Below, in pieces: positions 1-11,787 of a DNA stretch of 11,787 nt. Made by a program: the position numbers and the translations under genes. Positions within the stretch are counted from its first letter, which is position 1, and every line of letters begins with the position of its first letter. The DNA comes from Lutispora sp. (GTDB lineage Bacteria; Bacillota; Clostridia; Lutisporales; Lutisporaceae), in the NCBI GenBank assembly GCA_030834765.1, contig JAUQXG010000061.1:1-11787 (forward strand). Direction: 5' to 3'. Below the pieces are notes generated by a model that saw nothing but the letters and a program-made list of their open reading frames with translations, was not told the origin of the DNA and made no database searches.

Positions 1-176
1 TCACTAATCTTATATATGTCCCCTGGCATATTTGCAAAATACCCATTCACTGCAGTCACAACGGTTGCTTTTGGTGCTGCTGGGGCTGCCAGTACAGAAC
101 TGGTGAATCCAAACAATCCAAAAACCAGCGCAACAATTAAACACATCGATAAAATTTTAACTTTTCTTGAAATCAT
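1..176 (-). CDS. Exported protein, N-terminal part only; possibly rhodanese-like
   Basis: Only the first 58 codons are present; the gene runs off the left edge. The ATG at 176 is preceded by GGGAGG (190-185) at 8 nt spacing, which fixes the start. The product opens with a classic export signal: basic residues R4, K5 and K7, a hydrophobic core at about 9-24, and a likely signal peptidase I site after VLA (residue 30). The mature part begins APAAPKA and continues to NGYFANMPGDIYKIS. That opening reminds me of secreted single-domain clostridial rhodaneses, and the next gene upstream is a rhodanese lipoprotein. No catalytic residue is inside the window, so the family call is weak. The gene is co-directional with the rhodanese at 369-1445, about 190 nt away, and may have its own promoter. 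Confidence 0.75.
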   Translation of the reverse strand, partial: MISRKVKILSMCLIVALVFGLFGFTSSVLAAPAAPKATVVTAVNGYFANMPGDIYKIS

Positions 177-368
177 ATGGTTTTCCTCCCTTATTTATAA
201 TAGTGTTATTTTTTTGTCATATTAATTATATCAATAGAAACAATGGATACATATATTGTTTTATTTATGCTGCATAAGATAATCTTATATATAAATATGG
301 TTATTTTTCATAAATCCTTTCGTGAATGTCATAGCAAAATATAGTAAAACCTTTCACTATTGTGGTGC
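177..368. other. Intergenic region with two adjacent palindromes
   Basis: This 192-nt AT-rich gap separates the rhodanese lipoprotein from the next minus-strand gene. It holds TTATGC-T-GCATAA (265-277), which overlaps ATAAGAT-A-ATCTTAT (274-288). Both are perfect odd-length palindromes with a one-base centre. They lie roughly 90-110 nt upstream of the start codon at 176, a distance that suits an operator or a regulator binding site. No convincing -35/-10 pair was found for the gene at 1-176. Confidence 0.4.
335..360 (-). terminator. Weak hairpin after the rhodanese lipoprotein gene
   Basis: Read on the minus strand, an 8-bp stem (ATAGTGAA / TTTACTAT, one G-U pair) closes an AGGT loop at 360-341. 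It begins 9 nt after the stop codon and is followed by ATTTTG. The stem is AT-rich and the T run short, so this would be a weak or leaky intrinsic terminator; read-through into the next gene is possible. Confidence 0.35.
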
Positions 369-1445
369 TCAGGATGCATCTTGGCTATTGGACTCTACTG
401 GAGGAGTTGGTGCTGCAGGTTTCTTTTCTGGCTTTTTCAATGGCTCTGCAGGCTTAGTATCAGGCTTTTTCTCAGGTGTTTTAGGCTTTTCTTCTGTATT
501 TGTCTTTTTTTCTGTTTTCTCCTCTGATGCAGGCGTTGTATCAATTACAGGCTCTTCAGGCGCTGCTATGACTTCAGGCTCAATTGGGTTTTGAATTAAA
601 TCCCATTCCAGCCATGCCCCATCGTATACTTTTAGATTTCTATATCCTGCATTATAAAGTGCTAAAAAGCTTTGTGCTGCTCTTACTGATGTTTTACAAT
701 ACATTATTATTTCTTTATCTGGCGTGATTTTATTTTCAATATATTGAATTTTTATATGGTCTACAGGCTTATAGGTGGCATCTTTAAAGTTATTTTCTTC
801 AAAATTATATAATACTGCATTACCTATATAACCTTCTGCATATTCCTCTGGCGATCTTGTATCAAGAAGTATCACTTTATCACTTGGATTTTCTGCTATA
901 AGTTTTACTTCATCTATTGCTGCCAGCCACTTAATATCCTTATCCTTAGCTGTATAGCTCACCGAAGCAATTGATGTCTTTTCCGCTGTAAGCTCAAGGT
1001 TTGCATCTTCTATTGCTTTTATTCCTCCGCTTACTACCTTTGCATTATCGTGCCCATACATTTTTAGAGTCCACCAAAGTCGTGCGGCCTCCATATTTTT
1101 GTTGTTATCGTATATCAATACCATTGAATGATTAGATATTCCGTTAGCTCCAAGAATCTTTTCTACTTGATCTTTCGGTGCTAACATATTTGGGACTGGC
1201 TGGTTTATAACGATATTCTCCAGTGTAATATTTACTGCTCCAGCTATATGAGCTTTTGCGTAGTCTTCTGGCTTTTGCATGTCTACAATAACCGACTCAG
1301 CTTTTCCTACATAGTCTGATAAAGCTTTTGCATCAATTATATATTGTCCTTCATCAGCAGCATTTGTAGCGCTACAACCTGCCAAAAACATAACAATCGA
1401 TGTGAGAAGTACAAATAAAAGCCATACTCTCCATACCTGTTTCAT
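369..1445 (-). CDS. Tandem-rhodanese lipoprotein (thiosulfate sulfurtransferase type)
   Basis: This 358-residue product is probably an extracytoplasmic sulfurtransferase that moves sulfane sulfur from thiosulfate or a similar donor to a thiophilic acceptor. A lipoprotein signal ends in LAGC, with the lipidated Cys at 24. Two rhodanese domains follow. The first (about 32-155) has YDNN at 112-115 where a catalytic Cys would sit, so it is the usual inactive partner. The second (about 170-285) has the active loop CKTSVR with Cys250, then the family-typical YDGAWLEW. Residues 289-358 form a Pro/Lys/Glu/Thr-rich, probably disordered tail. I chose the ATG at 1445 because GGGGG (1457-1453) precedes it by 7 nt; an in-frame TTG at 1463 lacks such a site. 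Tandem rhodaneses are normally about 280 residues, so the tail and signal explain the extra length. 3-Mercaptopyruvate sulfurtransferase is less likely, because its loop is usually CGSGV-like. Confidence 0.9.
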   Translation of the reverse strand: MKQVWRVWLLFVLLTSIVMFLAGCSATNAADEGQYIIDAKALSDYVGKAESVIVDMQKPEDYAKAHIAGAVNITLENIVINQPVPNMLAPKDQVEKILGANGISNHSMVLIYDNNKNMEAARLWWTLKMYGHDNAKVVSGGIKAIEDANLELTAEKTSIASVSYTAKDKDIKWLAAIDEVKLIAENPSDKVILLDTRSPEEYAEGYIGNAVLYNFEENNFKDATYKPVDHIKIQYIENKITPDKEIIMYCKTSVRAAQSFLALYNAGYRNLKVYDGAWLEWDLIQNPIEPEVIAAPEEPVIDTTPASEEKTEKKTNTEEKPKTPEKKPDTKPAEPLKKPEKKPAAPTPPVESNSQDAS

Positions 1446-1523
1446 AGCTTTTCCCCCTATCAATCTTAATTTGTTAAATATGATACAATCATTAACTTTA
1501 TTATAATAGAGCAGCTAGCCTAA

Positions 1524-1563
1524 GCGGTATAAGACTTTTATATACTGCATCAAATTATTTGAT
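1524..1563. promoter_or_regulatory. Back-to-back inverted repeats in divergent promoter region
   Basis: Between the rhodanese lipoprotein gene and the GT-C gene, an imperfect inverted repeat (GCGGTATA 1524-1531, TATACTGC 1541-1548, one G-T mismatch) directly abuts a perfect palindrome, ATCAAAT-T-ATTTGAT (1549-1563). The palindrome ends just upstream of the -35 position of the GT-C promoter. It has the same geometry, 7-bp arms around one base, as the palindrome at 274-288. Operator function is inferred from position and symmetry alone. Confidence 0.4.
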
Positions 1564-1566
1564 ATG

Positions 1567-1594
1567 TTAAGCATCTGAATAATCATGATATAAT
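1567..1594 (+). promoter_or_regulatory. Putative sigma-70/sigma-A type promoter of the GT-C gene
   Basis: A consensus -10, TATAAT (1589-1594), is preceded by TGA, giving an extended -10. The -35 is poor (TTAAGC, 1567-1572, 16-nt spacer), which the extended -10 could offset. Transcription would start near 1600, leaving a leader of about 28 nt with TGGAGG at 1616-1621. Confidence 0.5.
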
Positions 1595-1628
1595 TGCTTT
1601 GCAGGAAACTAAAAATGGAGGCACTTAT

Positions 1629-3185
1629 ATGAATGGATTAATACAGTTCCTAATAAAAAAGTATATGTATGTTCTATTTCTTTTATATATAATCCTTAGT
1701 GTTTCTACCTTAACTGCTTTCCCTTTTGTACATTCTGACGAATCATGGCTAAGTGGTCTTTCTAGAAATATATTAGAGAAAAAAGATTTTTCTGTAACAG
1801 AAACCTTCTTTGATCTAAAGATAAGAAACCCTCATGCAATAAAAATACTCTTTCACAGCATACAAATTTTTTTTATAAAGATCCTTGGGTATGATATTTT
1901 TACTTTCAGACTTATTTCCCTTATTTTTGGAATGGCATCTCTTTTTCTTATTTATCAAATAAGTCTTCTTATTTTTCATTCAAAGCCTTGGGCTTTTTTT
2001 ACAGCCGCATTATTGGCAGCTGATGCACAGTTTGTTTATGCCTCTCATTTTGCCAGACAGGAAATAATCATACTTTTCATGCTGTGTTTTGGTTTTTGGT
2101 TTATCCTTAAGAGGAAAACGATGGCTTGTCTTAAGGATGATATCCTGTTAGGCATTATCATAGGACTTAGCATAGGTATTCATCCCAACAGCTTTATTAT
2201 TGCATTGCCTTTTGGTCTTATCTACTTAACAAGCATCTTGACAAAACAAAGATATAGCATGAAAAACCTTGCAGCCTTCACCTTTACAACAGCTGTTTTC
2301 GCTATCTTCTTTATATTCTTGAGCTTTAGCTTCGACCCAAACTTCATTCACAATTATTCTTCTTATGGAAACGAGTTTGATGTTTTTAATCCTCTATCAT
2401 CAAAACTTGCTCAAGTAAAAGACTTTTATCTAAAGCTCTACTATGGGGTTAGCGGAACGTATTATACGCCAAATATCAAATTTCAATTTTTCTTATTCCC
2501 CCTGGTATTCTTTATGAGTCTTATAAAGCTGTATTATGAGAAAGATAAACAAGTTAAGGATTCAATTTCAAGAACTTTATTATCTATCATTGCAATCAAT
2601 ATAGGCATAATCTTTATTGGTCGGTATAATCAAACAAGTGTTATATTTCTTTTCCCATTTTTCTACTTGCTATTCATTTATGTAATACAAAGCTTGAATC
2701 ACCTCTATCGGGTAGCGGCAATAAGCATATCACTAGCTGTATTGGTTTTAGGTATATGGCTTAACTACCTTCCCTACAGCCAAAACTCCTATGGTGATTA
2801 TATACAAAATATATCAAAAATTGTTAGCCCTCGTGACAACGTCCTTGCTAATTTAAATGCAGATTATTATTTTGAAAATGGTAAGCTATATGATTTTAGA
2901 AATTTAGCTTATCTAAAAGAGCATGGCATGAGCTTTGAAGACTATATCAAAAATAATGATATAAAATATATTATATATCCTGAGGAAATGGATTTTATTT
3001 ATGAATCCACTCCAAAATGGGATGTAATATATGGTACTCCTGATTATCATGATGAAATGAAAGATTTTATAAACAATCATTGTAAAAAGGTATATGAATT
3101 TACCGATGGCTTCTATGGAGTCAGAATAGTGAGATACATAAACACAAGGCCCTGGTTTATAAAAATTTATAAGGTTATGTCCTAG
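1629..3185 (+). CDS. GT-C fold membrane glycosyltransferase (GT39/ArnT-like, PMT_2 type)
   Basis: The 518-residue integral membrane enzyme probably transfers a sugar from a polyprenyl-phosphate donor to an acceptor on the outer face of the membrane. Evidence: about 9-11 hydrophobic segments between residues 11 and 395; the acidic pair Asp37-Glu38 in the first outer loop (HSDESW), typical of GT-C enzymes; and the later ASHFARQE (about 138-145) and GIHPNS (183-188) stretches placed as in the PMT_2/ArnT families. Residues from about 396 on are soluble and may form a small outer domain. The start is the ATG at 1629, with TGGAGG 7 nt upstream; a TTG at 1599 would add ten residues without a good site. 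The gene converges on the ABC ATPase gene, and both stops share CTAG. Its partner donor could be made by the GT2 enzyme at 7015-7749. The acceptor and sugar are unknown. Confidence 0.85.
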   Translation: MNGLIQFLIKKYMYVLFLLYIILSVSTLTAFPFVHSDESWLSGLSRNILEKKDFSVTETFFDLKIRNPHAIKILFHSIQIFFIKILGYDIFTFRLISLIFGMASLFLIYQISLLIFHSKPWAFFTAALLAADAQFVYASHFARQEIIILFMLCFGFWFILKRKTMACLKDDILLGIIIGLSIGIHPNSFIIALPFGLIYLTSILTKQRYSMKNLAAFTFTTAVFAIFFIFLSFSFDPNFIHNYSSYGNEFDVFNPLSSKLAQVKDFYLKLYYGVSGTYYTPNIKFQFFLFPLVFFMSLIKLYYEKDKQVKDSISRTLLSIIAINIGIIFIGRYNQTSVIFLFPFFYLLFIYVIQSLNHLYRVAAISISLAVLVLGIWLNYLPYSQNSYGDYIQNISKIVSPRDNVLANLNADYYFENGKLYDFRNLAYLKEHGMSFEDYIKNNDIKYIIYPEEMDFIYESTPKWDVIYGTPDYHDEMKDFINNHCKKVYEFTDGFYGVRIVRYINTRPWFIKIYKVMS

Positions 3186-3943
3186 ATCTGTACATCTAGC
3201 ATTGAATATATTTTTTCATATAAATCTAAAAACTCATCACTTCTCCTATTTCTCGGCCTTTCTTGAAAATTCTTTATTCTTTCCTTTATACGCCCTGGAG
3301 TTTTATCCATTACTATAATATTATCCCCAAGCGCCAGCGCCTCATTAATATCATGAGTAACAAAAACAATTGTCACTTCTGTTTTTCGCCAAATATCTAA
3401 TAGCTCATTTTGTAAATTACTCCTAGTAATGGCATCAAGACTGCCAAAGGGCTCATCCATAAGAAGAACTGATGGCTTTAATGCCAGCCCTCTGGCTATA
3501 GCTGCTCTTTGCTTCATACCTCCTGATAGCTGATGAGGATAATAATTCTTGAAATCTTCCAATCCTACCAATTTGAGATATTCTATAGATATTTCTATCC
3601 TTTGCATAGCAGAAGCTCCTATTTTATTTACTTTTAAAGGGAATAAAACATTTTCAAGAACTGTCATCCAAGGAAAAAGTTGATTATAATCTTGAAATAT
3701 CATGACCATATCTGCAGAAGGTTTTAATACTTTATTCCCGCAAATAAGTATTTCACCCTTATCAATTCTTTCAAAACCGCCAATCACTCTGAGCAATGTA
3801 GATTTTCCGCAGCCTGAGGCTCCTAATATGCACAATATTTCTCCCTTCCCTATAGAAAAGCTTATATCTTCTAATACCTTCAGCTTTTTATTCTCATTTA
3901 AATATGTTTTACTTATACTTACAGCTTTTAAAAAATCATTCAT
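3182..3943 (-). CDS. ABC importer ATPase, nitrate/sulfonate/taurine family (SsuB/TauB-like)
   Basis: This 253-residue cytoplasmic ATPase should power uptake through the permease encoded just upstream. All nucleotide-binding motifs are intact: Walker A GASGCGKST (41-49), Q-loop Gln84 in FQDYNQLFPW, signature LSGGMKQ (139-145), Walker B VLLMDEPF (159-166), D-loop SLD, and the switch His197 in VTHD. The QDYNQLFPWMTV stretch is characteristic of the SsuB/TauB/NrtD group. The start chosen is the ATG at 3943, which overlaps the permease stop as ATGA and suggests translational coupling; GGGGA lies 12 nt upstream. An in-frame ATG at 3961 would add six residues but has no visible ribosome site. The gene is last in the seven-gene operon and shares its stop tetranucleotide CTAG with the convergent GT-C gene. 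The substrate cannot be read from the ATPase. Confidence 0.93.
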   Translation of the reverse strand: MNDFLKAVSISKTYLNENKKLKVLEDISFSIGKGEILCILGASGCGKSTLLRVIGGFERIDKGEILICGNKVLKPSADMVMIFQDYNQLFPWMTVLENVLFPLKVNKIGASAMQRIEISIEYLKLVGLEDFKNYYPHQLSGGMKQRAAIARGLALKPSVLLMDEPFGSLDAITRSNLQNELLDIWRKTEVTIVFVTHDINEALALGDNIIVMDKTPGRIKERIKNFQERPRNRRSDEFLDLYEKIYSMLDVQI

Positions 3944-4707
3944 TTTACTGTCATTCCCCATTTTTCTATCGTATTTGCTTCAAGCCTTTCAAAAAGAAGA
4001 TCTTCCACCAACATTCCTATTATCACGATTATGATTAAAGCTGCAAACATTCCCGCGGTATCCATAAATACTCTTTGCTTAAATATGTACCAGCCCAAAC
4101 CCCCTTTTCCTCCAACTGCGCCAAATATCATTTCGGCACTTATTAAAGCCCGCCAAGCTCTTGCCCAGCCAATTCGAAGTCCGGAGATTATAAATGGCAT
4201 GGAGGCAGGAATATATATGGTACTAATTAGATGAATGCCTCTTACCCCAAGGTTATGTCCTACATCTGTAAAAATCCTAGGTATAGTTCTAAACCCAGTT
4301 GTAGTATTTAAAAGTATTGGCCATAAAGCAGAATGAATAATAACAAACACTACAGAAGTTCGCCCAGTGCCAAACCATAGTATAATTAAAGGCAAAAGTG
4401 CAATTCCAGGAAGAGGATGGGCTATGGCTATTAAAGTCTCAACGAAATCCTCCATAATCTTATACCTGATTGAAGCTAAAGCCAAAAGAAATGCAAAAAA
4501 AGTACCTATAAAAAGACCTTCTAAAATGATAATTAAGGAGTACATCGTTTCATTTAGGAGTTCACCTCTCATGATACTCTCTAGAAAAGCTTTTATTACC
4601 ATATATGGGCTTGGTAAAATTAGAGAAGAAAAAGTGCCGCTCATTGAAATAACTTGCCAAAACAATATGATCAAAAAGCTCCAAAACAACTTCTTATTTT
4701 TCATCAT
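3940..4707 (-). CDS. ABC importer permease, SsuC/TauC-like
   Basis: The 255-residue inner membrane subunit is expected to form the translocation pore as a dimer. About six hydrophobic segments are visible (near 8-22, 57-79, 93-111, 118-134, 165-180 and 221-238). An LPSP motif at 31-34, just after the first segment, is typical of SsuC/TauC/NrtB permeases. The cytoplasmic EAA-like coupling loop lies around 183-204, including ALISAEMIFG and GGKGGLGW. The gene overlaps the end of the binding-protein gene by 14 nt. GGGAAG sits 8 nt before the first of two tandem ATG codons (4707 and 4704). Length and topology are normal for the family. Sulfonates, taurine, nitrate or thiamine precursors are all possible for this superfamily; nearby sulfur genes favour a sulfur compound, while the adjacent ligase favours a biosynthetic substrate. 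Confidence 0.92.
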   Translation of the reverse strand: MMKNKKLFWSFLIILFWQVISMSGTFSSLILPSPYMVIKAFLESIMRGELLNETMYSLIIILEGLFIGTFFAFLLALASIRYKIMEDFVETLIAIAHPLPGIALLPLIILWFGTGRTSVVFVIIHSALWPILLNTTTGFRTIPRIFTDVGHNLGVRGIHLISTIYIPASMPFIISGLRIGWARAWRALISAEMIFGAVGGKGGLGWYIFKQRVFMDTAGMFAALIIIVIIGMLVEDLLFERLEANTIEKWGMTVK

Positions 4708-5671
4708 TTACATCTTCCCACAAAATTTCATTTATACTTTGAGGAGTTTTAGATATATATCCGTTTCTTTTCATAAACTCAGCAAATTCAGGAACACCTG
4801 CCACAGAATTATCATAGCTTACACCTTCTAACGTCATGTACTTTTCTATCTCCTCCTCACTCATCTCATATGCTTTGCTTAAAAGTATTTGAGTTGCCTC
4901 TCTATTTTGTTTCATATATGCCATCGCTTCATTCAAGGATTTTATGAAAGCTTTATATGCTTTCGTGTTTTTGTCATGAAAATTGCTTGTTGATACTCCT
5001 ACTATAAAGGTAAAATCTTTTCCCATAGCTTCACTGCCGCTTAATATCTGATGCATACCTTCGACTTCCAGTTCCTTTGTCAGATATGGTGGCGCTGTAA
5101 AATGAGCAGTTATATCATTTTTGCTAAAAAGTGCATTCATTCCATCGGGATGTGCCAAAGTGATAAGCTGATTATCAAGCCTTTCTGGCTCTCCAAATTC
5201 TCTCTCGCAAGCCATGGAAAGCAAAATATGCTGAACACTTCCTGGCTGTGGAACTGCAATTCTATCCTTACCCGTAAAATCCTTTATTGATTTTATATGA
5301 GGATTATTCACAACCAAGCCTACAGGGCTTTTGGAAAGACCGCTAAAAATTCTCCAATCCATTCCTTTATCCCACCCAATCAAAAAAGGAGGTATAGCCA
5401 TAAAACCAATGTCCACTTCTTTGGCAACCATTGCTTCTCTTATTGCAGCAGTATTACCTAGTTGCTTCCAAGTTACCTCTACCCCAGGAAGATTTTTTTC
5501 TAATAGCTTCAGCTCTTTCATCACTTGAAGAGGTGCATAGGCAAGTCCAAACTGTTCAGCTACAGAAATCTTGCTGACCTCTAAGTTTTGCTGATTACCA
5601 ATTGTGCATCCAGATAAAATTATAGACAATAAAGTAATCATTATAGACAATATCAAACTTAGCTTTTTCAT
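4694..5671 (-). CDS. Substrate-binding lipoprotein of the ABC importer (SsuA/TauA/NMT1-like)
   Basis: This 325-residue protein captures the ligand outside the cell and delivers it to the permease. The signal ends in the lipobox LSGC, so Cys22 is the lipid anchor, as expected in a Gram-positive. The mature part has the type II periplasmic-binding fold pattern of the NMT1/SsuA group: a QFGLAYAPL opening at about 40-48, VDIGFMAIPP (about 91-100) lining the cleft, and KDFTGKDRIAVPQPGS in the hinge region (about 124-139). The ATG at 5671 overlaps the stop of the ATP-grasp gene as ATGA, with AGGAAG a few nt upstream, so the two are probably translated together. Family members bind aliphatic sulfonates, taurine, nitrate, bicarbonate, riboflavin or pyrimidine precursors. 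I cannot choose among these, and an acyl donor for the neighbouring ligase is also conceivable. Confidence 0.9.
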   Translation of the reverse strand: MKKLSLILSIMITLLSIILSGCTIGNQQNLEVSKISVAEQFGLAYAPLQVMKELKLLEKNLPGVEVTWKQLGNTAAIREAMVAKEVDIGFMAIPPFLIGWDKGMDWRIFSGLSKSPVGLVVNNPHIKSIKDFTGKDRIAVPQPGSVQHILLSMACEREFGEPERLDNQLITLAHPDGMNALFSKNDITAHFTAPPYLTKELEVEGMHQILSGSEAMGKDFTFIVGVSTSNFHDKNTKAYKAFIKSLNEAMAYMKQNREATQILLSKAYEMSEEEIEKYMTLEGVSYDNSVAGVPEFAEFMKRNGYISKTPQSINEILWEDVNDEK

Positions 5672-6921
5672 ACATCTGCTTCCTTTCTAACCTTAAAATC
5701 AATTATCAGGTTTTCATCCTTTTTATCTAAAATGTAAAGTTTACTGTAAGCATGCCTTATATTATCCTGTAAGCTTTTTTCATTTATCCCTGTGATTATC
5801 ATAAAGCCTGCTCTAGCAGTTGCATTCTCTATAGCTTTTAACTCATATCCTTCTTTAACATTGTATTTTGCTTGTACGATTCCCGGCAGCTTTCTTATTT
5901 CATTCATGTCGTTCATTTTTATTATCATTCCTGGTTTAGCGAAAATCATTTCCACAGATAGATATTTTTTATTATGATAAATACTATAATTATATAAGGA
6001 TCTACTATCTATTTTATTACCAATGCTTGACTCTATAAGCATGTCTAATATGTCTACTCCAGTTATGAAGGGTATAAATTCATCTTCATAGGCTCCCCCT
6101 ATCCGGCAGGCGATCTCATTTACTTTTATTCCTTTTTCACCTATCAGCATTTGAAAATAAATAGGTCCATTTTTTATATGGAATGCTTCTACGATTTGGT
6201 TTGCTATGTCTATTATTTCTACTCCATAATCATTAAAATGCTTTGATGGAAAATGATGTGCTGTACATATGCCTATATGAGGAAAGCTCTGATAGCTTAT
6301 CCTATCTGTAATGGTAAGTATATGCACAATACTATTTTCAACCCATCCACTTAATGTAATTTCCTGACTTTGGTAATACTCCTCCAGCAGTATTTCTTTT
6401 TCCCTTGAAAAGCTTAGAACATTATCAAATACAGTCCTTATGTCACTAACATGATCAAGCTTATATACGCCCCTCTGTCCTTGGCTATCCAGTGGTTTCA
6501 CCACAACAGGAAATCTTATATCCGAAATTTCTTTTTCTGAAAATGATTTTTCTATTATTTTATAACGAACCGTTGGAATGTTATTTTCTGTGAATATCCT
6601 CTTCATAACCTTCTTATTGGTGGCAGCCTTGGCGATATCCACATCTATTAAAGCTGGTAAACTTAAAACTTTCGCAACGCTTGCTGCTGTATATACTGGC
6701 TGATCCGTGCCCAAAGTCATTATGCCATCAACATTATGTTTTTTAGCCACTAAAATAGTAGCTTCCACATCAAAAGTACTCGCCAGCTCCCCATAATTAC
6801 ATATTGCTTTTGCAGGAGCATCTAAGTAATAATCAGATACTATAACAAAATGACCCTTTTCCCTGGCTCTTTTCACCAGATTGTATTGCACATTGCTGCC
6901 GCCCAATATCAGAAGCTTCAT
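5668..6921 (-). CDS. ATP-grasp carboxylate-amine/thiol ligase
   Basis: The 417-residue cytoplasmic enzyme is expected to activate a carboxylate as an acyl phosphate with ATP and join it to an amine, or less often a thiol. An N-terminal preATP-grasp Rossmann-like domain opens with LILGGSN (4-10). The ATP-binding part includes VVKPLDSQGQRGV (140-152, Lys142). The metal site is VNEIACRIGG, with Asn268, Glu269 and Arg273. The region after about 330 resembles the C-terminal domain of CarB/PurK-like members. The start at 6921 has AAAGGG about 8 nt upstream. A 93-nt gap with two hairpins separates it from the GT2 gene, while downstream it overlaps the binding-protein gene by ATGA. Ligases of this group recur in surface-sugar clusters, where acylation of an aminosugar is a reasonable idea. 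PurK or biotin carboxylase roles are unlikely, since no purine or biotin genes are near. Substrates are unknown. Confidence 0.85.
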   Translation of the reverse strand: MKLLILGGSNVQYNLVKRAREKGHFVIVSDYYLDAPAKAICNYGELASTFDVEATILVAKKHNVDGIMTLGTDQPVYTAASVAKVLSLPALIDVDIAKAATNKKVMKRIFTENNIPTVRYKIIEKSFSEKEISDIRFPVVVKPLDSQGQRGVYKLDHVSDIRTVFDNVLSFSREKEILLEEYYQSQEITLSGWVENSIVHILTITDRISYQSFPHIGICTAHHFPSKHFNDYGVEIIDIANQIVEAFHIKNGPIYFQMLIGEKGIKVNEIACRIGGAYEDEFIPFITGVDILDMLIESSIGNKIDSRSLYNYSIYHNKKYLSVEMIFAKPGMIIKMNDMNEIRKLPGIVQAKYNVKEGYELKAIENATARAGFMIITGINEKSLQDNIRHAYSKLYILDKKDENLIIDFKVRKEADV

Positions 6922-6940
6922 AATTTTTACCCTTTCTTGC

Positions 6941-7004
6941 AGCTATGTAATGTCATAGCTGACATTTTGCACAAAATAGAATTGATAAAGGCGATAGCCT
7001 TTTT
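6941..7004. other. Two hairpins in the GT2 / ATP-grasp gap
   Basis: This is the largest gap inside the operon. It holds a perfect inverted repeat AGCTATG-N6-CATAGCT (6941-6960) and a second hairpin AAAGGC-GATA-GCCTTT (6987-7002). Read on the minus strand, the second lies about 13 nt after the GT2 stop and is followed by only a short T run, so it would be a leaky terminator or an mRNA stability element. Read on the plus strand it has five T residues (7000-7004). The elements could set different expression levels for the sugar genes and the ligase/importer genes. Confidence 0.4.
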
Positions 7005-7014
7005 CAAACTTCTC

Positions 7015-7749
7015 CTAAAGATACGTATTTTTTAAAACATATTGAGGTTTGGTATGGTGTCCCGTTGCTCTGAAAACCCCTGAGTAGTATATAAATAGCT
7101 TTAAAAAAACCTTGGTTAATTGAATCATATTATAATTTGACTTACCAAACTTTCTCTCATTATGCGTTACCATTACATTTCCAATATTTTTTGTATGCTT
7201 TAGGGTAATAGCTGATATATAAACAAAGCTTGTATTATCAATACTTATGGCTTCTACTATGTGTTTTCTCATCGCACGAAAGCTGCTGACTCGGATTCCG
7301 TTTGGCTTTCCACATATGATATGAAACAAGCCATCCGTCAGTTTCGTACCTATGTTTCGATAAAAGCTATGTTTTTTGTTTAATGGTATGCCATAAACTA
7401 CATCATAGCCTTGTCCCAACTCATTTAAAAGCTTGATGATTTCTTCTGGAGGATGCTGCAAATCATCATCCATTGTAACTATAGTTTCATATTTTGCATG
7501 CCGAAGTCCGCACATAAGTGCATTTTGCTGTCCAAAATTACCATCTAACCCAATTGCCTTCACTCGATTATCCACTTCATGCAGTTTGCCCATCTCTATA
7601 TAGCTGTGATCTGTACTTCCATCATCTATTAAGATTATTTCATGATTGTTGCAACTGTTCTCTAAAAAACTAGATAATCTTATATATAATTCATAAAGAG
7701 ACTTTTCGCTGTTATAAACAGGTATTATCACTGAAATATTATCAAACAT
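7015..7749 (-). CDS. Family 2 glycosyltransferase, ArnC/GtrB/DPM-like, without the C-terminal membrane pair
   Basis: This 244-residue enzyme should transfer a sugar from a nucleotide donor, probably to polyprenyl phosphate. The GT-A domain is intact: VIIPVYNSE (7-15), IDDGSTD (41-47) for nucleotide binding, and the catalytic metal region MDDDLQHPPE (93-102). The later HNERKFGKSNY (196-206) matches the conserved RxxGxSxY segment of polyprenyl-phosphate glycosyltransferases. ArnC and GtrB relatives run to about 310-330 residues with two membrane helices after this point. Here the chain stops at 244, with only a short hydrophobic stretch (about 213-223). Neither alternative frame downstream encodes membrane helices, so a simple frameshift does not explain it. 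The ATG at 7749 lies 1 nt after the aminotransferase stop, with TTGGAG about 9 nt upstream; a TTG at 7773 is a less likely start. It may be a natural soluble variant. Confidence 0.88.
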   Translation of the reverse strand: MFDNISVIIPVYNSEKSLYELYIRLSSFLENSCNNHEIILIDDGSTDHSYIEMGKLHEVDNRVKAIGLDGNFGQQNALMCGLRHAKYETIVTMDDDLQHPPEEIIKLLNELGQGYDVVYGIPLNKKHSFYRNIGTKLTDGLFHIICGKPNGIRVSSFRAMRKHIVEAISIDNTSFVYISAITLKHTKNIGNVMVTHNERKFGKSNYNMIQLTKVFLKLFIYYSGVFRATGHHTKPQYVLKNTYL

Positions 7750-7750
7750 A

Positions 7751-8893
7751 TTATAGTTCTCCAATAATATCAATTAAATTTTGCCCAACATACTCCATTT
7801 CCTGCCTCGTCATATCAGGATATAAAGGTAATCTTAAAAGGCCTTGACTTACTTTTTCTGTAATTCTTAAATCACCCTTTGTGTACCCCAGATGCTTCCC
7901 CATCTTTGAGCTATGTAGGGGTACATAATGGGTAGTCGCACTAATTCCGCGGGAATTCAATTCTGTCATCACATAATTTCTATGAAGCTCATGAGGAAAA
8001 ATTAAATAAAATATATGATAATTGCTTTCACATTCTGTTGGTATATTTACCAATTTTATATTTTCCTTTAAAGCTTTATTCTTCAAAACATCTGTATAAT
8101 ATTCATGTATAAATCTTCTTTTTTCTGTTATCTTTCCCATTTCCTCAAGCTGCCCCATAAGCATAGCCATCAAAATATCAGAAGGACTATAGCTTGATCC
8201 TTTGCCAGTCCAGCTATAGCGGTCTATCTCCCCCCTTAAAAACCTTTCCCTGTCCGTTCCCTTTTGCCTTATGATTTCTGCCTTCTCCATAAATGCTTCA
8301 TCCTCTGTATTGATCAATAAGGCTCCACCTTCACCACAGGTATAGTTTTTTGTGCCATGAAAGCTGAAAGCACCCATATGTCCAATACTGCCAAGATATT
8401 TGCCTTTGTATTTTGCATGAACACTTTGGGCAGCATCCTCTATGACATACAGCTTATTTTTCTTGGCTATACTCATAATACTGTCCATATCACAGCTGAT
8501 TCCTCCATAATGTACAGGTATGATTGCTTTTGTTTTATGAGTCAATTTATTTTCCATTTCCTTTGGCGACATATTTAAAGTATTTTCCTCTATATCGCAA
8601 AAGACTGGTTTTCCTCCTCTAAGAATGATGGAATTGGCAGTTGATGTAAAGGTGAAGGATGGCATAATTACCTCATCTCCAGGAGCAATGTCAATAATAA
8701 GAGCAGCCAGCTCAAGAGCATGAGTGGCGGAGGTAGTCATGTAGGCCCGCAAAATCCCAAATTTTTGTTCCAAAAGCGCCGAAACCTGCCTCGTATAATA
8801 TCCATCTCCACTGATATCATTTTTATTTATTGCATCAAGTACATATTCTTTTTCTTTAGAAGAGTGATATGACTTATGATAAGGTATTTTCAT
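7751..8893 (-). CDS. wecE: dTDP-4-amino-4,6-dideoxyhexose transaminase, WecE/RffA type (DegT/DnrJ/EryC1 family)
   Basis: The 380-residue PLP enzyme should aminate the dTDP-4-keto-6-deoxyglucose made by the upstream dehydratase, giving dTDP-4-amino-4,6-dideoxygalactose (Fuc4N). As I recall E. coli WecE, the sequence follows it closely along its whole length. Matching blocks include PGDEVIMPSFTFTSTAN (71-87), AIIPVHYGG (123-131), the PLP-contacting IEDAAQ (151-156), FSFHGTKNYT with the Schiff-base Lys182, and THYVPLHSS near the C-terminus. Length matches WecE (about 376). It starts at an ATG with AAGGGG 7 nt upstream, 13 nt after rfbB, and its stop lies 1 nt before the GT2 start. No FdtA-like isomerase is present, which argues against a 3-amino sugar route. 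A VioA/DesI-type 4-amino-glucose product remains possible, so the stereochemistry is inferred. Confidence 0.93.
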   Translation of the reverse strand: MKIPYHKSYHSSKEKEYVLDAINKNDISGDGYYTRQVSALLEQKFGILRAYMTTSATHALELAALIIDIAPGDEVIMPSFTFTSTANSIILRGGKPVFCDIEENTLNMSPKEMENKLTHKTKAIIPVHYGGISCDMDSIMSIAKKNKLYVIEDAAQSVHAKYKGKYLGSIGHMGAFSFHGTKNYTCGEGGALLINTEDEAFMEKAEIIRQKGTDRERFLRGEIDRYSWTGKGSSYSPSDILMAMLMGQLEEMGKITEKRRFIHEYYTDVLKNKALKENIKLVNIPTECESNYHIFYLIFPHELHRNYVMTELNSRGISATTHYVPLHSSKMGKHLGYTKGDLRITEKVSQGLLRLPLYPDMTRQEMEYVGQNLIDIIGEL

Positions 8894-8906
8894 ATGATAC
8901 CCCTTC

Positions 8907-9893
8907 TTATTTATTATTCTTCAAATACCATTTAATTGTATTATGAAGCCCTAATTCAAAATCTATGGAAGGTTTCCATCCCAAATCCTTTCTTATCTTC
9001 CTTGAATTTATTTTATATCGTCTGTCATGGCCTTTTCGATCTGCAATGTAGGTAATGAGCTTCTCTGTTATTTCAGCACATTGTATCCCTTGTGATTTTA
9101 GCTCAGCTTTGCATAGATCAAGAATTTTCTTTATAAGCAACCTGTTTTCTATTTCATTTCCAGCACTTATATTATATATCTCTCCTAGTTTCCCTTTTCT
9201 CAGGACCTCATATATAGCTCTGCAATGATCTTCTACATAAATCCAGTCTCTCCTGTGAAGTCCATCTCCATATAGCGGTATACTTTGATTCTTCATATAT
9301 CGGTCTATTACCATTGGTATTAGTTTCTCTTTGTTTTGATAAATCCCATAATTATTTGTGCTTCGAGTGATCAAAATTGGTAGCTTATATGTATTAAAAT
9401 ATGAAATTGCCAGCATATCTCCAGCTGCTTTGCTGGCTGCATAGGGATTCCCTGGCTTTAATAGTGATAATTCGCTAGATTCTCTCTCTCCAATAGCTGC
9501 TCCGTATACTTCATCAGTGGATATTTGAATAAATCTCTTAATTTCATTTTTTAGCGAGCACTGTAAAAGCACCTGAAGACCCATTACATTTGTATTTATA
9601 AAAATCTCACTATCTTCAATGCTCCTATCTACGTGAGATTCAGCAGCAAAATTCACAACATAATCAGGATCATAGGTTTTAAAAATGCTTTCCATCCCAG
9701 CCTTATTGCATATATCTTCTTTCATAAAAATATAATTTTTATTTTCCTCCAGCTCTTTTAGTTCATTAAGGTTAGCAGCATAGGTCAGCTTATCCACATT
9801 TACAATAAATATATTGCTCACATTCTTTTGCAAATACTGTATAAAGTTCAATCCTATGAAGCCTGCCCCTCCTAGTATTAGAAAAACTTCCAT
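8907..9893 (-). CDS. rfbB: dTDP-glucose 4,6-dehydratase
   Basis: The 328-residue NAD-dependent enzyme converts dTDP-glucose to dTDP-4-keto-6-deoxyglucose, the entry step of many deoxy- and aminosugar routes. It belongs to the extended short-chain dehydrogenase family. Visible motifs are GGAGFIG (8-14) for NAD, DKLTYAANL (34-42), NFAAESHVDRS (81-91), ISTDEVYG (124-131) with the active-site Thr126, Asp127 and Glu128, and YAASK with Tyr151 and Lys155. RSTNNYG (about 177-183) and DGLHRRDWIYVEDH also match RfbB proteins closely. The length is normal (about 330-360). It starts at an ATG with AGGAG a few nt upstream and is the first gene of the seven-gene operon. No dTDP-glucose synthase (RfbA) gene is in the window, so the nucleotide sugar must be supplied from another locus. 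The kept Asp-Glu pair favours a dehydratase over an epimerase. Confidence 0.95.
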   Translation of the reverse strand: MEVFLILGGAGFIGLNFIQYLQKNVSNIFIVNVDKLTYAANLNELKELEENKNYIFMKEDICNKAGMESIFKTYDPDYVVNFAAESHVDRSIEDSEIFINTNVMGLQVLLQCSLKNEIKRFIQISTDEVYGAAIGERESSELSLLKPGNPYAASKAAGDMLAISYFNTYKLPILITRSTNNYGIYQNKEKLIPMVIDRYMKNQSIPLYGDGLHRRDWIYVEDHCRAIYEVLRKGKLGEIYNISAGNEIENRLLIKKILDLCKAELKSQGIQCAEITEKLITYIADRKGHDRRYKINSRKIRKDLGWKPSIDFELGLHNTIKWYLKNNK

Positions 9894-9910
9894 ATCCTTC
9901 TCCTATGCCA

Positions 9911-9940
9911 ATAATACGCCTTTGCAATACTGCATGACAA
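9911..9940 (-). promoter_or_regulatory. Putative promoter of the rfbB operon
   Basis: On the minus strand, TTGTCA (9940-9935) and TATTAT (9916-9911) are separated by 18 nt. Transcription would start close to the AGGAG ribosome site of rfbB, giving a very short leader of about 10-12 nt. The element interlocks with the tusA promoter on the other strand. It is the best match in the 88-nt gap but is not proven. Confidence 0.45.
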
Positions 9941-9951
9941 TTTGTTATAAT
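9922..9951 (+). promoter_or_regulatory. Putative promoter of the tusA-like gene
   Basis: TTGCAA (9922-9927) and a consensus TATAAT (9946-9951) are 18 nt apart, and a TGT just before the -10 makes it an extended -10. The predicted start near 9958 leaves a leader of about 24 nt carrying AAAGAGG at 9968-9974. Confidence 0.6.
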
Positions 9952-9981
9952 AATATCAATATAGTATAAAGAGGTATGTAT

Positions 9982-10200
9982 ATGAAAACAATTGATTGTT
10001 TGGGAGAATTTTGCCCCATACCTATTTTGAGAATAAAATCTGAGCTAAAGATAACATCTAAAGGTGAATGCTTTATGGTGGTAACAGACCATAGCTGTGT
10101 GCTTCAATCCATACAGGATTATTTTAAAAAAACGCATAATACTGTGAAAACAAATGAAATAATAAATGGTGTCTGGGAGATTGTTATCACAAAAGGTTAA
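9982..10200 (+). CDS. TusA-family sulfur carrier protein
   Basis: This 72-residue cytoplasmic protein should carry sulfur as a persulfide on a cysteine. The family signature is complete: DCLGEFCPIP with the CPxP Cys at 11, then PILRIKSEL leading into the first helix. Three more cysteines are at 6, 30 and 39. I chose the ATG at 9982 because AAAGAGG (9968-9974) lies 7 nt before it; the in-frame ATG at 9976 is only 1 nt from that site. TusA-like proteins often sit directly beside YeeE/YedE transporters. Here a LysR gene lies between it and the YeeE/YedE gene, and the three probably form one sulfur-handling locus. It shares its stop tetranucleotide TTAA with the convergent lysR gene. Possible partners are the YeeE/YedE protein, rhodaneses or a cysteine desulfurase. 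Selenium-linked members also exist. Confidence 0.93.
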   Translation: MKTIDCLGEFCPIPILRIKSELKITSKGECFMVVTDHSCVLQSIQDYFKKTHNTVKTNEIINGVWEIVITKG

Positions 10201-11093
10201 CAAAAGCTTTTCTCTCCGATTTTCTTCAAAAACTGTATGAACTCTTTTGTACTTTTATTCATGTCTTTATTTTTCTTATATATGATGTATATATCATAGC
10301 TCATTTCGAAATTATCTATTTTAATTTCTTTTAGCTGCTTTAAATATAATTCTTTTTTCACTGATATATAAGGCACAAAAGATAATCCATACCCTTTTAG
10401 AACACTTGACTTTACTGATTCAGTAGAATCAAGGTTAAAAAGTACTTTATAATCGTCCATATTATAGCCATTTTCCTTAAAATACTCATTTATTTGTTTT
10501 CTATATTTAAATTTCTCTTGGATCATGATTAGAGGATGCTTTACAAGTTCCTTTAATGACATTTCTTCTTTTATATTATAATCATAGGATGAAACTAAGA
10601 CTAGCTTGTCTGTTCCAACCTTCGCTCTTATAAGCTGGTCATCATTTGGGATGCCTTGAATAAAGCCTACATCACAAACATCGTTTAAAATGTTTTGCTC
10701 AACAATGTCAGAAAGATTGGAAGTAAGATTATAAGTATATTGAGGAAATTCTGCTTTTATAAGATATAGTGTACATGGTAGTGCATAAGTTGCCATGTTA
10801 GGACAAGATTCTATTCTAATAGAGCTATTACTTTTATTTATGGTGTCCAGATCTTCTATCATATTATCATAGGATCTAATTAAACTTTTGCAATACTTCT
10901 CTACAACTTTCCCAGCCTCAGTAAGTTCTACACCTTTATTACTTCTTACCAGAAGCTTGTAGCCAAGGCTATCTTCCAGCCTTTGTATCTGTTGACTGAG
11001 GGCTGGTTGTGATATATGAGAATAGTTTGCTACTTTAGAGATGCTTCTTACTGATGCTACTTCATAAAAAAGTCTAAGATATTCTATATGCAT
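10197..11093 (-). CDS. LysR-type transcriptional regulator
   Basis: The 298-residue DNA-binding regulator has an N-terminal winged helix-turn-helix (about 2-60), with the family-typical LRLFYEVASVRSISKVA, ISQPALSQQIQRLEDSLG and LTEAGK segments. A linker helix follows (about 65-88), then an effector-binding domain of the periplasmic-binding type (about 90-290). AGGGGG (11108-11103) stands 9 nt before the ATG at 11093, which yields the normal family start. ATGs at 11102 and 11099 are too close to that site. The gene is divergent from yeeE/yedE, and the shared 211-nt region holds repeated GCTAT/ATAGC motifs. The classic LysR arrangement therefore suggests control of that gene and of itself. CysB-like or CysL-like sensing of a sulfur metabolite is a fair guess from context only. 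Its 3' end overlaps tusA by 4 nt. Confidence 0.93.
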   Translation of the reverse strand: MHIEYLRLFYEVASVRSISKVANYSHISQPALSQQIQRLEDSLGYKLLVRSNKGVELTEAGKVVEKYCKSLIRSYDNMIEDLDTINKSNSSIRIESCPNMATYALPCTLYLIKAEFPQYTYNLTSNLSDIVEQNILNDVCDVGFIQGIPNDDQLIRAKVGTDKLVLVSSYDYNIKEEMSLKELVKHPLIMIQEKFKYRKQINEYFKENGYNMDDYKVLFNLDSTESVKSSVLKGYGLSFVPYISVKKELYLKQLKEIKIDNFEMSYDIYIIYKKNKDMNKSTKEFIQFLKKIGEKSFC

Positions 11094-11146
11094 ATCCATC
11101 ATCCCCCTGAATATTTATTCCTTGATAATATATTATCATATAGTTG

Positions 11147-11242
11147 GCTATAGTAATAGCTTATGGCGCCTTTGCTGCTATAATTTTAATTTATATAGCA
11201 TAAGCACTTTAAATAAGTACGCTATAATTTCTATGCTATAAT
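11147..11242. promoter_or_regulatory. Repeated GCTAT/ATAGC operator-like cluster between lysR and yeeE/yedE
   Basis: A palindrome GCTAT-AGTA-ATAGC (11147-11160) is followed by an inverted pair TGCTATA (11176-11182) and TATAGCA (11194-11200). The direct repeat GCTATAATTT occurs at 11177-11186 and 11221-11230, 44 bp apart or about four helical turns. GCTATAAT recurs at 11235-11242. LysR proteins bind dyads of the T-N11-A type upstream of a divergent target, often at two or three helically phased sites, so this cluster is a good candidate for the regulator's binding region. Confidence 0.6.
11234..11242 (+). promoter_or_regulatory. Putative extended -10 element of the yeeE/yedE gene
   Basis: TGC directly before TATAAT (11237-11242) forms an extended -10, about 62 nt ahead of the start codon. 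The -35 position (around 11214-11219) is poor, which fits a promoter that needs an activator. The -10 overlaps the last GCTATAAT repeat. Two other TATAAT hexamers, at 11179 and 11223, are alternatives. Confidence 0.45.
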
Positions 11243-11304
11243 CATGTTGTCGGAATTTCATATGCATCCTTGTTAAATATATATCTAAAAAGGAGGGGGA
11301 ACTC

Positions 11305-11787
11305 ATGTCTGAGCCTAATATCAGTATTCGTACTTCATCAAGAGCTAGGACTGATACCAAGAAAAAAACTAAAAAGAATCAAATTCCTATTGGCATTGCT
11401 CTTTTTGCAGCCATGATATTATTTGGTATTTATTTGTCAAATATATCACCTAAGCTTGCTCTTTTCTGGATCACAGGAGGGTGCTTCGGCTTCATTCTTC
11501 AAAAATCACGATTTTGTTTTACAGCATCCATGCGTGATCCATACCTTACTGGAAGCACCTCAGTTACACGAGCTGTATTGGTAGCTTTTGCTTTCACTAC
11601 CATTGCATTTACTGCAATAAAATATGGAGCTTTTATAAAGGGGCTTCCAATACCAGGTCAAAGCTATATCGTTCCCATCAGCTTTGCAACTGCAGCAGGA
11701 GCATTTCTTTTCGGAATAGGTATGGTAATAGCAGGCGGCTGTGCTTCCGGGACTCTTATGAGAGTGGGAGAAGGCTTCGGTATGCAA
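11305..11787 (+). CDS. YeeE/YedE-family sulfur-compound transporter, N-terminal part
   Basis: The first 161 codons are present; the gene continues past the right edge. The start ATG follows a very strong site, AAGGAGGGGG, about 4-5 nt upstream. A basic cytoplasmic tail (1-26) precedes at least four hydrophobic segments (about 28-46, 50-66, 89-105 and 123-145). Family hallmarks are GGCFGFILQKSRFCF (58-72) and AGGCASGTLMR (143-153), with Cys60, Cys71 and Cys146. Conserved cysteines in YeeE proteins such as TsuA line the path for thiosulfate. The family also includes members linked to selenium, which are harder to exclude from a fragment. A divergent LysR gene and the TusA-like gene nearby support a role in uptake of thiosulfate or a related sulfur species. 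Confidence 0.88.
   Translation, partial: MSEPNISIRTSSRARTDTKKKTKKNQIPIGIALFAAMILFGIYLSNISPKLALFWITGGCFGFILQKSRFCFTASMRDPYLTGSTSVTRAVLVAFAFTTIAFTAIKYGAFIKGLPIPGQSYIVPISFATAAGAFLFGIGMVIAGGCASGTLMRVGEGFGMQ

Follow-up and report, generated by a model that had tools for sequence, protein, structure and literature searches.

The stretch of DNA analysed here (the window) comprises 11,787 nucleotides (nt) of Lutispora sp. (assembly GCA_030834765.1, contig JAUQXG010000061.1, positions 1 to 11,787), in which a seven-gene operon for an aminosugar, a carboxylate-amine ligase and an importer lies beside the genes of a GT-C glycosyltransferase and of a lipoprotein rhodanese ending in a short C-terminal tag, D-x-S. 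From the gene families, their conserved linkage, the tag and the link between tag and GT-C, all read from the sequence, we infer which reactions take place, which residue accepts the sugar, which acid and which sulfur species are involved and what the sugar is for, and we propose, with a probability of roughly 0.57, that the GT-C would attach an N-acylated 4-amino-4,6-dideoxyhexose to the Ser that ends one surface rhodanese, beside YeeE/YedE-TusA sulfur import. Such sugar tagging would probably serve the uptake of sulfur compounds by anaerobic bacteria. In the mechanism envisaged, RmlB and WecE would make a deoxythymidine diphosphate (dTDP)-4-amino-4,6-dideoxyhexose of the Fuc4N or Qui4N type, to the 4-amino group of which the ATP-grasp ligase would amide-link a small carboxylic acid, usually supplied by the neighbouring importer (an ATP-binding cassette (ABC) importer, or a DASS symporter in one family). 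An ArnC-like GT2 would load the sugar on polyprenyl phosphate and, after flipping, the GT-C would pass it on to a single lipoprotein rhodanese, at the C-terminal Ser of its D-x-S tail; once modified, this protein would act on the external side of the membrane, beside YeeE/YedE-TusA import of thiosulfate, polysulfide or another form of sulfane sulfur.

In the window, the GT-C and rhodanese genes are divergent (head-to-head) and 135 nt apart:

369..1463, minus strand: lipoprotein rhodanese, the predicted acceptor, with two rhodanese domains, one of them with a Cys at the active-site place (Pfam Rhodanese, 6e-33)
372..383, minus strand: C-terminal tag Q-D-A-S, directly before the stop codon (in the ortholog tails D and S alone are invariant)
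1599..3185, plus strand: GT-C glycosyltransferase of the PMT_2 family, the proposed transferase to the tag (Pfam PMT_2, 8.5e-07, 29.8 bits, cut-off 26.1)

We refer to the window rhodanese and its orthologs as F9, and to the second rhodanese family of the loci as F1. The window F9 runs through a long Pro/Lys-rich linker to the C-terminus ...SQDAS, and a D-x-S C-terminus was present in 28 of 28 distinct F9 orthologs, all from GT-C loci or GT-C genomes, as well as in a 29th (L130). The linker before the tag spans 17 to 96 residues and is unconserved; in F9, x varies among G, A, N, M and V, leaving D and S as the sole fixed tail residues and S as the sole fixed hydroxyl residue. Elsewhere in F9 the lipobox Cys (C30) and C256 are invariant (13 aligned rows), as are H45, D47 and E48 of the GT-C (16 aligned rows). 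Among the 748 distinct open reading frames (ORFs) of at least 100 residues in the loci, a count that excludes truncated ORFs at sequence ends except for a few in L128-L132, D-x-S ends 32, comprising all F9 proteins (26/26), five of the 50 F1 or F1-like proteins and a single one, a ligase, of the remaining 672. A scan of three genomes for one spelling of Q-D-x-S-stop (CAR GAY NNN TCN TAA) returned 26 DNA matches, three of which end an ORF of more than 100 amino acids (aa), each time the F9 rhodanese and once per genome, and a fourth closes a 73-aa ORF; with this single spelling in these three genomes, a general sequon is unsupported. No match above cut-off to the NCBIfam model rhoda_near_glyco (NF045521) was found in 21 genomes. 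The F1 rhodanese has two domains (about 300 aa) or four (about 600 aa) depending on the genome (e.g., L007 16863-18695 and L018 14146-15924).

The distribution of the tag was compared with that of the GT-C. Matches to a GT-C hidden Markov model were obtained in 14/398 genomes of the phylum, 18/391 of the class, 4/22 of the family and 5/82 of another class, amounting to 35 distinct GT-C genomes once repeats were removed. A tagged rhodanese was found in 23 of them, on the contig of the GT-C in 22 and elsewhere in the genome in G308; four could not be judged as their contigs end (G011, G501, G541, G660), and G268 is a distant outlier with the ligase absent from its stretch. An F9 profile matched in 61 of the 398 genomes, and the ten with at least 335 bits were all GT-C genomes and all tagged. 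In contrast, none of the 20 F9 homolog tails read (149-257 bits), all from genomes without GT-C, carried the tag, and most of these homologs stop soon after the rhodanese fold; the 20 are those for which a locus was returned, and among the remaining 31, G102 has a GT-C together with a weak untagged match. GT-C genomes of the 398 sample without a strong F9 are G102, G268, G411 and G441, the last with a tagged F1. Moreover, one GT-C clade (support 100/100) contains five loci in which F1, rather than F9, bears the tag together with a new linker, and in the four of them with tandem F1 genes the tag is on the GT-C-side copy only. Two GT-C genes occur in genome G828, and both have a tagged rhodanese of their own alongside: the first with a tagged F1 and with biosynthesis and importer genes, the second with a tagged F9 and none of these genes in the 20 kb read. 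In 28 of 34 cases the tagged gene and the GT-C gene are immediate neighbours in divergent orientation, and in three they are one gene apart, while in L058 and L059 the tagged gene lies about 9 kb from the GT-C on the same contig and in L055 on a different contig. Such co-occurrence is what one would expect of an enzyme and its substrate.

The operon and the further genes of the window are as follows:

3182..3961, minus strand: ABC importer ATPase, SsuB/TauB-like (Pfam; NCBIfam below cut-off)
3940..4707, minus strand: ABC importer permease, SsuC/TauC-like (Pfam; NCBIfam below cut-off)
4694..5671, minus strand: importer binding lipoprotein with an SsuA/TauA-like fold
5668..6921, minus strand: ATP-grasp carboxylate-amine ligase, L-amino-acid-ligase-like, proposed aminosugar N-acylase (LAL_C2 5.6e-11, ATP-grasp_4 3.3e-08)
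7015..7773, minus strand: GT2, ArnC-like polyprenyl-phosphate sugar transferase with a DDD motif (Glycos_transf_2 3e-29)
7751..8893, minus strand: WecE-type dTDP-4-amino-4,6-dideoxyhexose aminotransferase (NF008687, 503 bits, cut-off 375)
8907..9893, minus strand: RmlB/RfbB dTDP-glucose 4,6-dehydratase (TIGR01181, 399 bits, cut-off 365)
9976..10200, plus strand: TusA-family small sulfur-transfer protein, 74 aa (59% identical to L009:7701-7919)
10197..11102, minus strand: LysR-family regulator (best NCBIfam model NF040786, selenium metabolism LysR, 198 bits, below the cut-off of 250)
11305..11787, plus strand: leading half-gene of a YeeE/YedE sulfur transporter encoded in two parts, truncated at the contig end (identity to the half-genes of L007 and L009, 86% and 78%)

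Rfam gave no match in the window at gathering scores. Since the window is an entire contig of a 564-contig draft genome, both flanks are cut.

An earlier note on this DNA had described seven co-directional genes that overlap or nearly abut apart from one 93-nt gap, and all seven ORFs were indeed recovered on the minus strand (9893-3182), spaced from RmlB to the ATPase by a 13-nt gap, a 23-nt overlap, the 93-nt gap and overlaps of 4, 14 and 22 nt. The GT2 start codon, TTG, lies inside the 23-nt overlap with the aminotransferase gene, and the 4-nt overlap of ligase and binding-protein genes is the ATGA noted before. RmlB and WecE exceeded their curated NCBIfam cut-offs, the remaining five operon proteins matched below cut-off and Pfam was concordant; as the note had supposed, the expected product of the first two enzymes is thus a dTDP-4-amino-4,6-dideoxyhexose, likely of the Fuc4N or Qui4N type. 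Use of this aminosugar by the GT2, likewise suggested before, is consistent with its best NCBIfam model being ArnC (148 bits, below the cut-off of 529), and D102-D104 are invariant (9 aligned rows). RmlA is additionally encoded in loci L008, L012 and L035. The ligase carries both LAL_C2 and ATP-grasp domains (Pfam) and matched PDB entry 4dim (6e-34) as well as the L-amino acid ligases 3vot and 4wd3; by its C-terminal domain it groups with L-amino-acid ligases, and its substrate may be an amino acid. In L038 (9071-10229) the ligase gene of G007 is in two frames between intact neighbours, possibly by sequencing error or decay. A ligase scan of species genomes gave 17 loci, two of them distant Bacteroidales relatives in another context. 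The ligase relatives in L022 (9099-12650) and L023 (9995-13522), from two Bacteroidales/Bacteroidia metagenome-assembled genomes (MAGs), are 24-28% identical and have in common another set of three families downstream, without sulfur genes nearby, possibly reflecting another use of the ligase.

In 36 of 44 loci the gene immediately following the ligase gene belongs to an importer, of the ABC type in 33 and a DASS protein in three, so that the proposed association of ligase and importer, which was to fall if the two were rarely found together, has held. The importer is nonetheless an optional part of the unit, since 10 of the 11 genomes without an adjacent copy at the locus lack the binding protein altogether (genome-wide search at E 1e-20); GT-C, sulfur-transfer genes and rhodaneses are steadier partners. 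Of the SsuABC/TauABC likeness claimed for the importer, the binding-protein fold and the full set of three subunits stand, whereas the NCBIfam cut-offs for SsuA/TauA and their partners were missed (SsuA_fam 99.4 bits, 163.5 needed) and the binding protein is only 21% identical to SsuA and likewise 21% to TauA. Its fold points to sulfonates or taurine as ligand, with bicarbonate and nitrate binders scoring almost equally. The Sao ABC system (PMC13188914), which gave the best NCBIfam matches of the ATPase (257 bits, 360 needed) and the permease (109 bits, 295 needed), was rejected, as none of the SaoA, SaoP and SaoX cut-offs was reached. The motifs of DASS proteins are SNT. In family f39 (L048, L050, L054, L045 and L041) a DASS anion symporter replaces the ABC importer, its gene beginning 4 nt inside the ligase gene in L048, L050 and L054, and its alignment has PNV at the expected first SNT-type motif and a retained SNT at the second.

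The unit is larger than the seven genes first delimited, and its theme is sulfur: it further includes the GT-C, lipoprotein rhodaneses, TusA, LysR and a split YeeE/YedE. The recurring order, with variations, is YeeE - TusA - LysR - (RmlB) - WecE - GT2 - ligase - (importer) - GT-C - rhodanese - second rhodanese, and the TusA, GT-C and rhodanese lipoprotein of the window are of the kinds that recur with the operon. Records titled Clostridia, Halanaerobiales, other Firmicutes, one Spirochaetales and one 'Calditrichales' MAG contain the block at roughly 33-63% identity for the seven operon proteins, some of them lacking parts or having them elsewhere, and this recurrence indicates a non-random gene order. 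Cultured species that carry the locus include Geosporobacter ferrireducens (L009) and Clostridium homopropionicum (L013). In the stretches of 30 GT-C genomes (G003, identical to L007 by coordinates, and the ligase-scan loci being left out, and many stretches stopping at contig ends), we counted GT2 in 30, WecE in 29, the ligase in 28, LysR in 24, the YeeE family in 23 (in some genomes the match belongs to a second, neighbouring module), TusA and F1 in 21 each and a thioredoxin reductase-thioredoxin fusion in 10. Sulfur genes (YeeE, TusA or rhodanese) were present in 27 of these 30, the three exceptions being the outlier G268 and G501 and G541, whose contigs are shorter than 6 kb. Across 18 GT-C genomes, matches to PF04143 (YeeE family), with split half-genes counted separately, cluster at the GT-C: 29 of 45 are no more than 15 kb away, against 0.5 matches expected under uniform placement, and they come from 16 of the 18 genomes.

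The sulfur genes of the window were assigned by identity to those of L009, which passed the gathering cut-offs of PF04143 (a YeeE half-gene) and PF01206 (TusA, L009:7701-7919, 65 bits). The best NCBIfam name of this TusA is YedF and that of the YeeE/YedE halves is NF033796 (selenium), while the other L009 TusA best matches the thiosulfate partner TsuB/YeeD; none of the L009 genes passed the NCBIfam cut-offs for TsuA/TsuB or for selenium YedE/YedF. A second sulfur module often adjoins the unit, consisting of a long YeeE, a coenzyme A (CoA)-disulfide-reductase-like/rhodanese protein (565-579 aa) and a taurine-type ABC importer (L011 176-5335, L030 241-4920, L043 1824-7921; similar in L015, L017, L025, L032, L047, L049 and L051); for four of these genes and the YeeE, all model scores were below cut-off except one of the SsuA family. 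In L035 a split-Soret cytochrome c-like gene (12065-12862; NF047622, 168 bits, below cut-off) lies between the tagged F1 and the YeeE genes.

Several observations weigh against glycosylation of the rhodanese tail. The GT-C matches PMT_2 weakly, a sequence search gave no relative of solved structure, no flippase was seen in the window, and six ligase loci continue straight into a convergent GT-C without an adjacent importer. The tagged gene is not beside the GT-C in six cases, in G308 being on another contig, and in seven of the 35 GT-C genomes (G102, G411, G473, G497, G562, G581, G687), which were searched for F9-like rhodaneses only, no tagged rhodanese was found; no candidate for another acceptor emerged in these seven, the F1 seen there having an ordinary tail. 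In the GT-C tree six of these genomes fall together (91/78), and within that group five join at 100/99, with one undetermined row among them; there the acceptor may be a different one, or the tag may not be the acceptor. In addition, tagged and untagged F9 homologs form different clades (336-482 versus 149-257 bits), and part of the 10-versus-0 association is therefore ancestry, while the transfer of the tag to F1 was probably one event. Finally, the D-x-S tail could stay unmodified and serve as a signal for docking or sorting (to the YeeE half-subunits, F1 or the GT-C), with the sugar going elsewhere, e.g., to a wall polymer or lipid. YeeE, TusA and F1 are likewise common nearby, and the seven genomes without a tagged rhodanese and the six cases of separation are compatible with docking. 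Nevertheless, the tag tracks the GT-C, sitting on F1 in place of F9 in one of its clades and missing from each of the 20 homologs that were read in genomes lacking GT-C, and a single invariant hydroxyl residue at the extreme end would fit a modification site, and we therefore regard an unmodified signal as unlikely.

The sulfur context and the tag also bear on what the sugar would be for. The earlier note placed the sugar on an envelope acceptor, and modules combining undecaprenyl phosphate (Und-P)-linked sugars with a GT-C often decorate polymers; the gene families here would be compatible with an acylated aminosugar on a cell-wall or surface polymer and an importer for a plain nutrient. Sulfur genes, however, are found in the stretches of 27 of the 30 GT-C genomes, and the binding protein follows the ligase and occurs elsewhere in just one of the 11 genomes without an adjacent copy, unlike a stand-alone nutrient importer. 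General envelope decoration is thus probably not the role of the system, and we consider it very unlikely; given the sulfur context and the D-x-S tag, the bulk envelope acceptor was demoted, and one lipoprotein tail appears the more likely acceptor. The same glycosylation system might instead serve selenium uptake, as the best NCBIfam names of the LysR (NF040786), the YeeE/YedE halves (NF033796) and the window-type TusA (YedF) would suggest. Yet all these names are below cut-off, the other L009 TusA is closest to TsuB/YeeD, and CoA-disulfide-reductase-like/rhodanese fusions and taurine-type importers are nearby in several loci, making selenium a very unlikely cargo.

If a glycosylated rhodanese is indeed the product, the sugar might be a prosthetic group, its acyl part carrying a thiol or another sulfur-binding group and the flexible, Cys-free glycosylated tail acting as a swinging arm, borne by the glycan, that brings sulfane sulfur from the active site, or from outside, to YeeE/TusA. 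We offer this role as a rather unlikely refinement, with the rhodanese being already lipid-anchored and the acid seemingly special enough for import as the grounds for entertaining it. A prosthetic sugar arm would be the sugar-based counterpart, in anaerobic bacteria, of the C-terminal Cys arm of SoxY and of lipoyl arms. No description of the locus, of this combination of parts or of a GT-C-linked C-terminal D-x-S tag was found in our searches of the open-licence PubMed Central (PMC) literature; the parts are of known kinds, and the combination and the GT-C-linked tag appear new. If correct, our proposal would describe dedicated protein glycosylation in anaerobes by a GT-C acting on a three-residue C-terminal tag, with an acyl-aminosugar that has its own importer and is tied to sulfur uptake. 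It would account for a lipid-linked sugar pathway inside a sulfur locus, offer a small glycotag for protein C-termini and perhaps bring to light a sulfur carrier of a new kind.

Among known systems, the Arn pathway (ArnB, ArnC, ArnT) uses a DegT-family aminotransferase to make a 4-aminosugar, a GT2 to load Und-P and a GT-C to move the sugar. The present system resembles it in the DegT-family aminotransferase, the related GT2 for Und-P and the GT-C, and differs in having a dTDP-hexose and an ATP-grasp ligase where Arn has a uridine diphosphate (UDP)-pentose and the formyl steps of ArnA/ArnD, and in the likely protein acceptor. In TfpO/PilO and TfpM, as far as the excerpted text of PMC12645811 describes them, the C-terminal Ser (or Thr) of pilin is O-glycosylated by a dedicated transferase encoded close by. 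Here, too, there would be one dedicated transferase for one kind of substrate with a proposed C-terminal Ser acceptor and genes that are often close, and a conserved C-terminal Ser on one substrate near the transferase was found save in the seven of 35 GT-C genomes. The transferases of that excerpt have an O-antigen-ligase-related domain and act on pilins, whereas no such domain was found in the window GT-C, for which PMT_2 is the sole Pfam match, and the proposed substrate is a rhodanese lipoprotein. On the sulfur side, YeeE with a TusA-family partner imports thiosulfate (YeeE-YeeD, or TsuA-TsuB; excerpt of PMC11073785), and Thermotoga maritima yeeE, in one unit with dsrE/tusA homologs, is 42.6-fold up with thiosulfate (excerpt of PMC9431562). 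The loci studied here likewise have a YeeE-family transporter beside a TusA-family partner. They differ from YeeE-YeeD as excerpted in that many divide YeeE between two genes and in having rhodanese lipoproteins and a sugar module. SoxYZ-SoxT provides an outside sulfur carrier with a proposed hand-over to a YeeE-like importer (excerpt of PMC11582611), SoxY binding sulfur on the Cys of its C-terminal GGCGG (excerpt of PMC6067878). The tagged rhodanese would similarly be an external sulfur carrier with a special C-terminus delivering to a YeeE-like importer, although, in contrast to SoxY, F9 tails are free of Cys (0/26). Taken together, the precedents of TfpO/PilO, SoxYZ-SoxT and YeeE make a sugar on the rhodanese tail for sulfur import the simplest reading of the locus.

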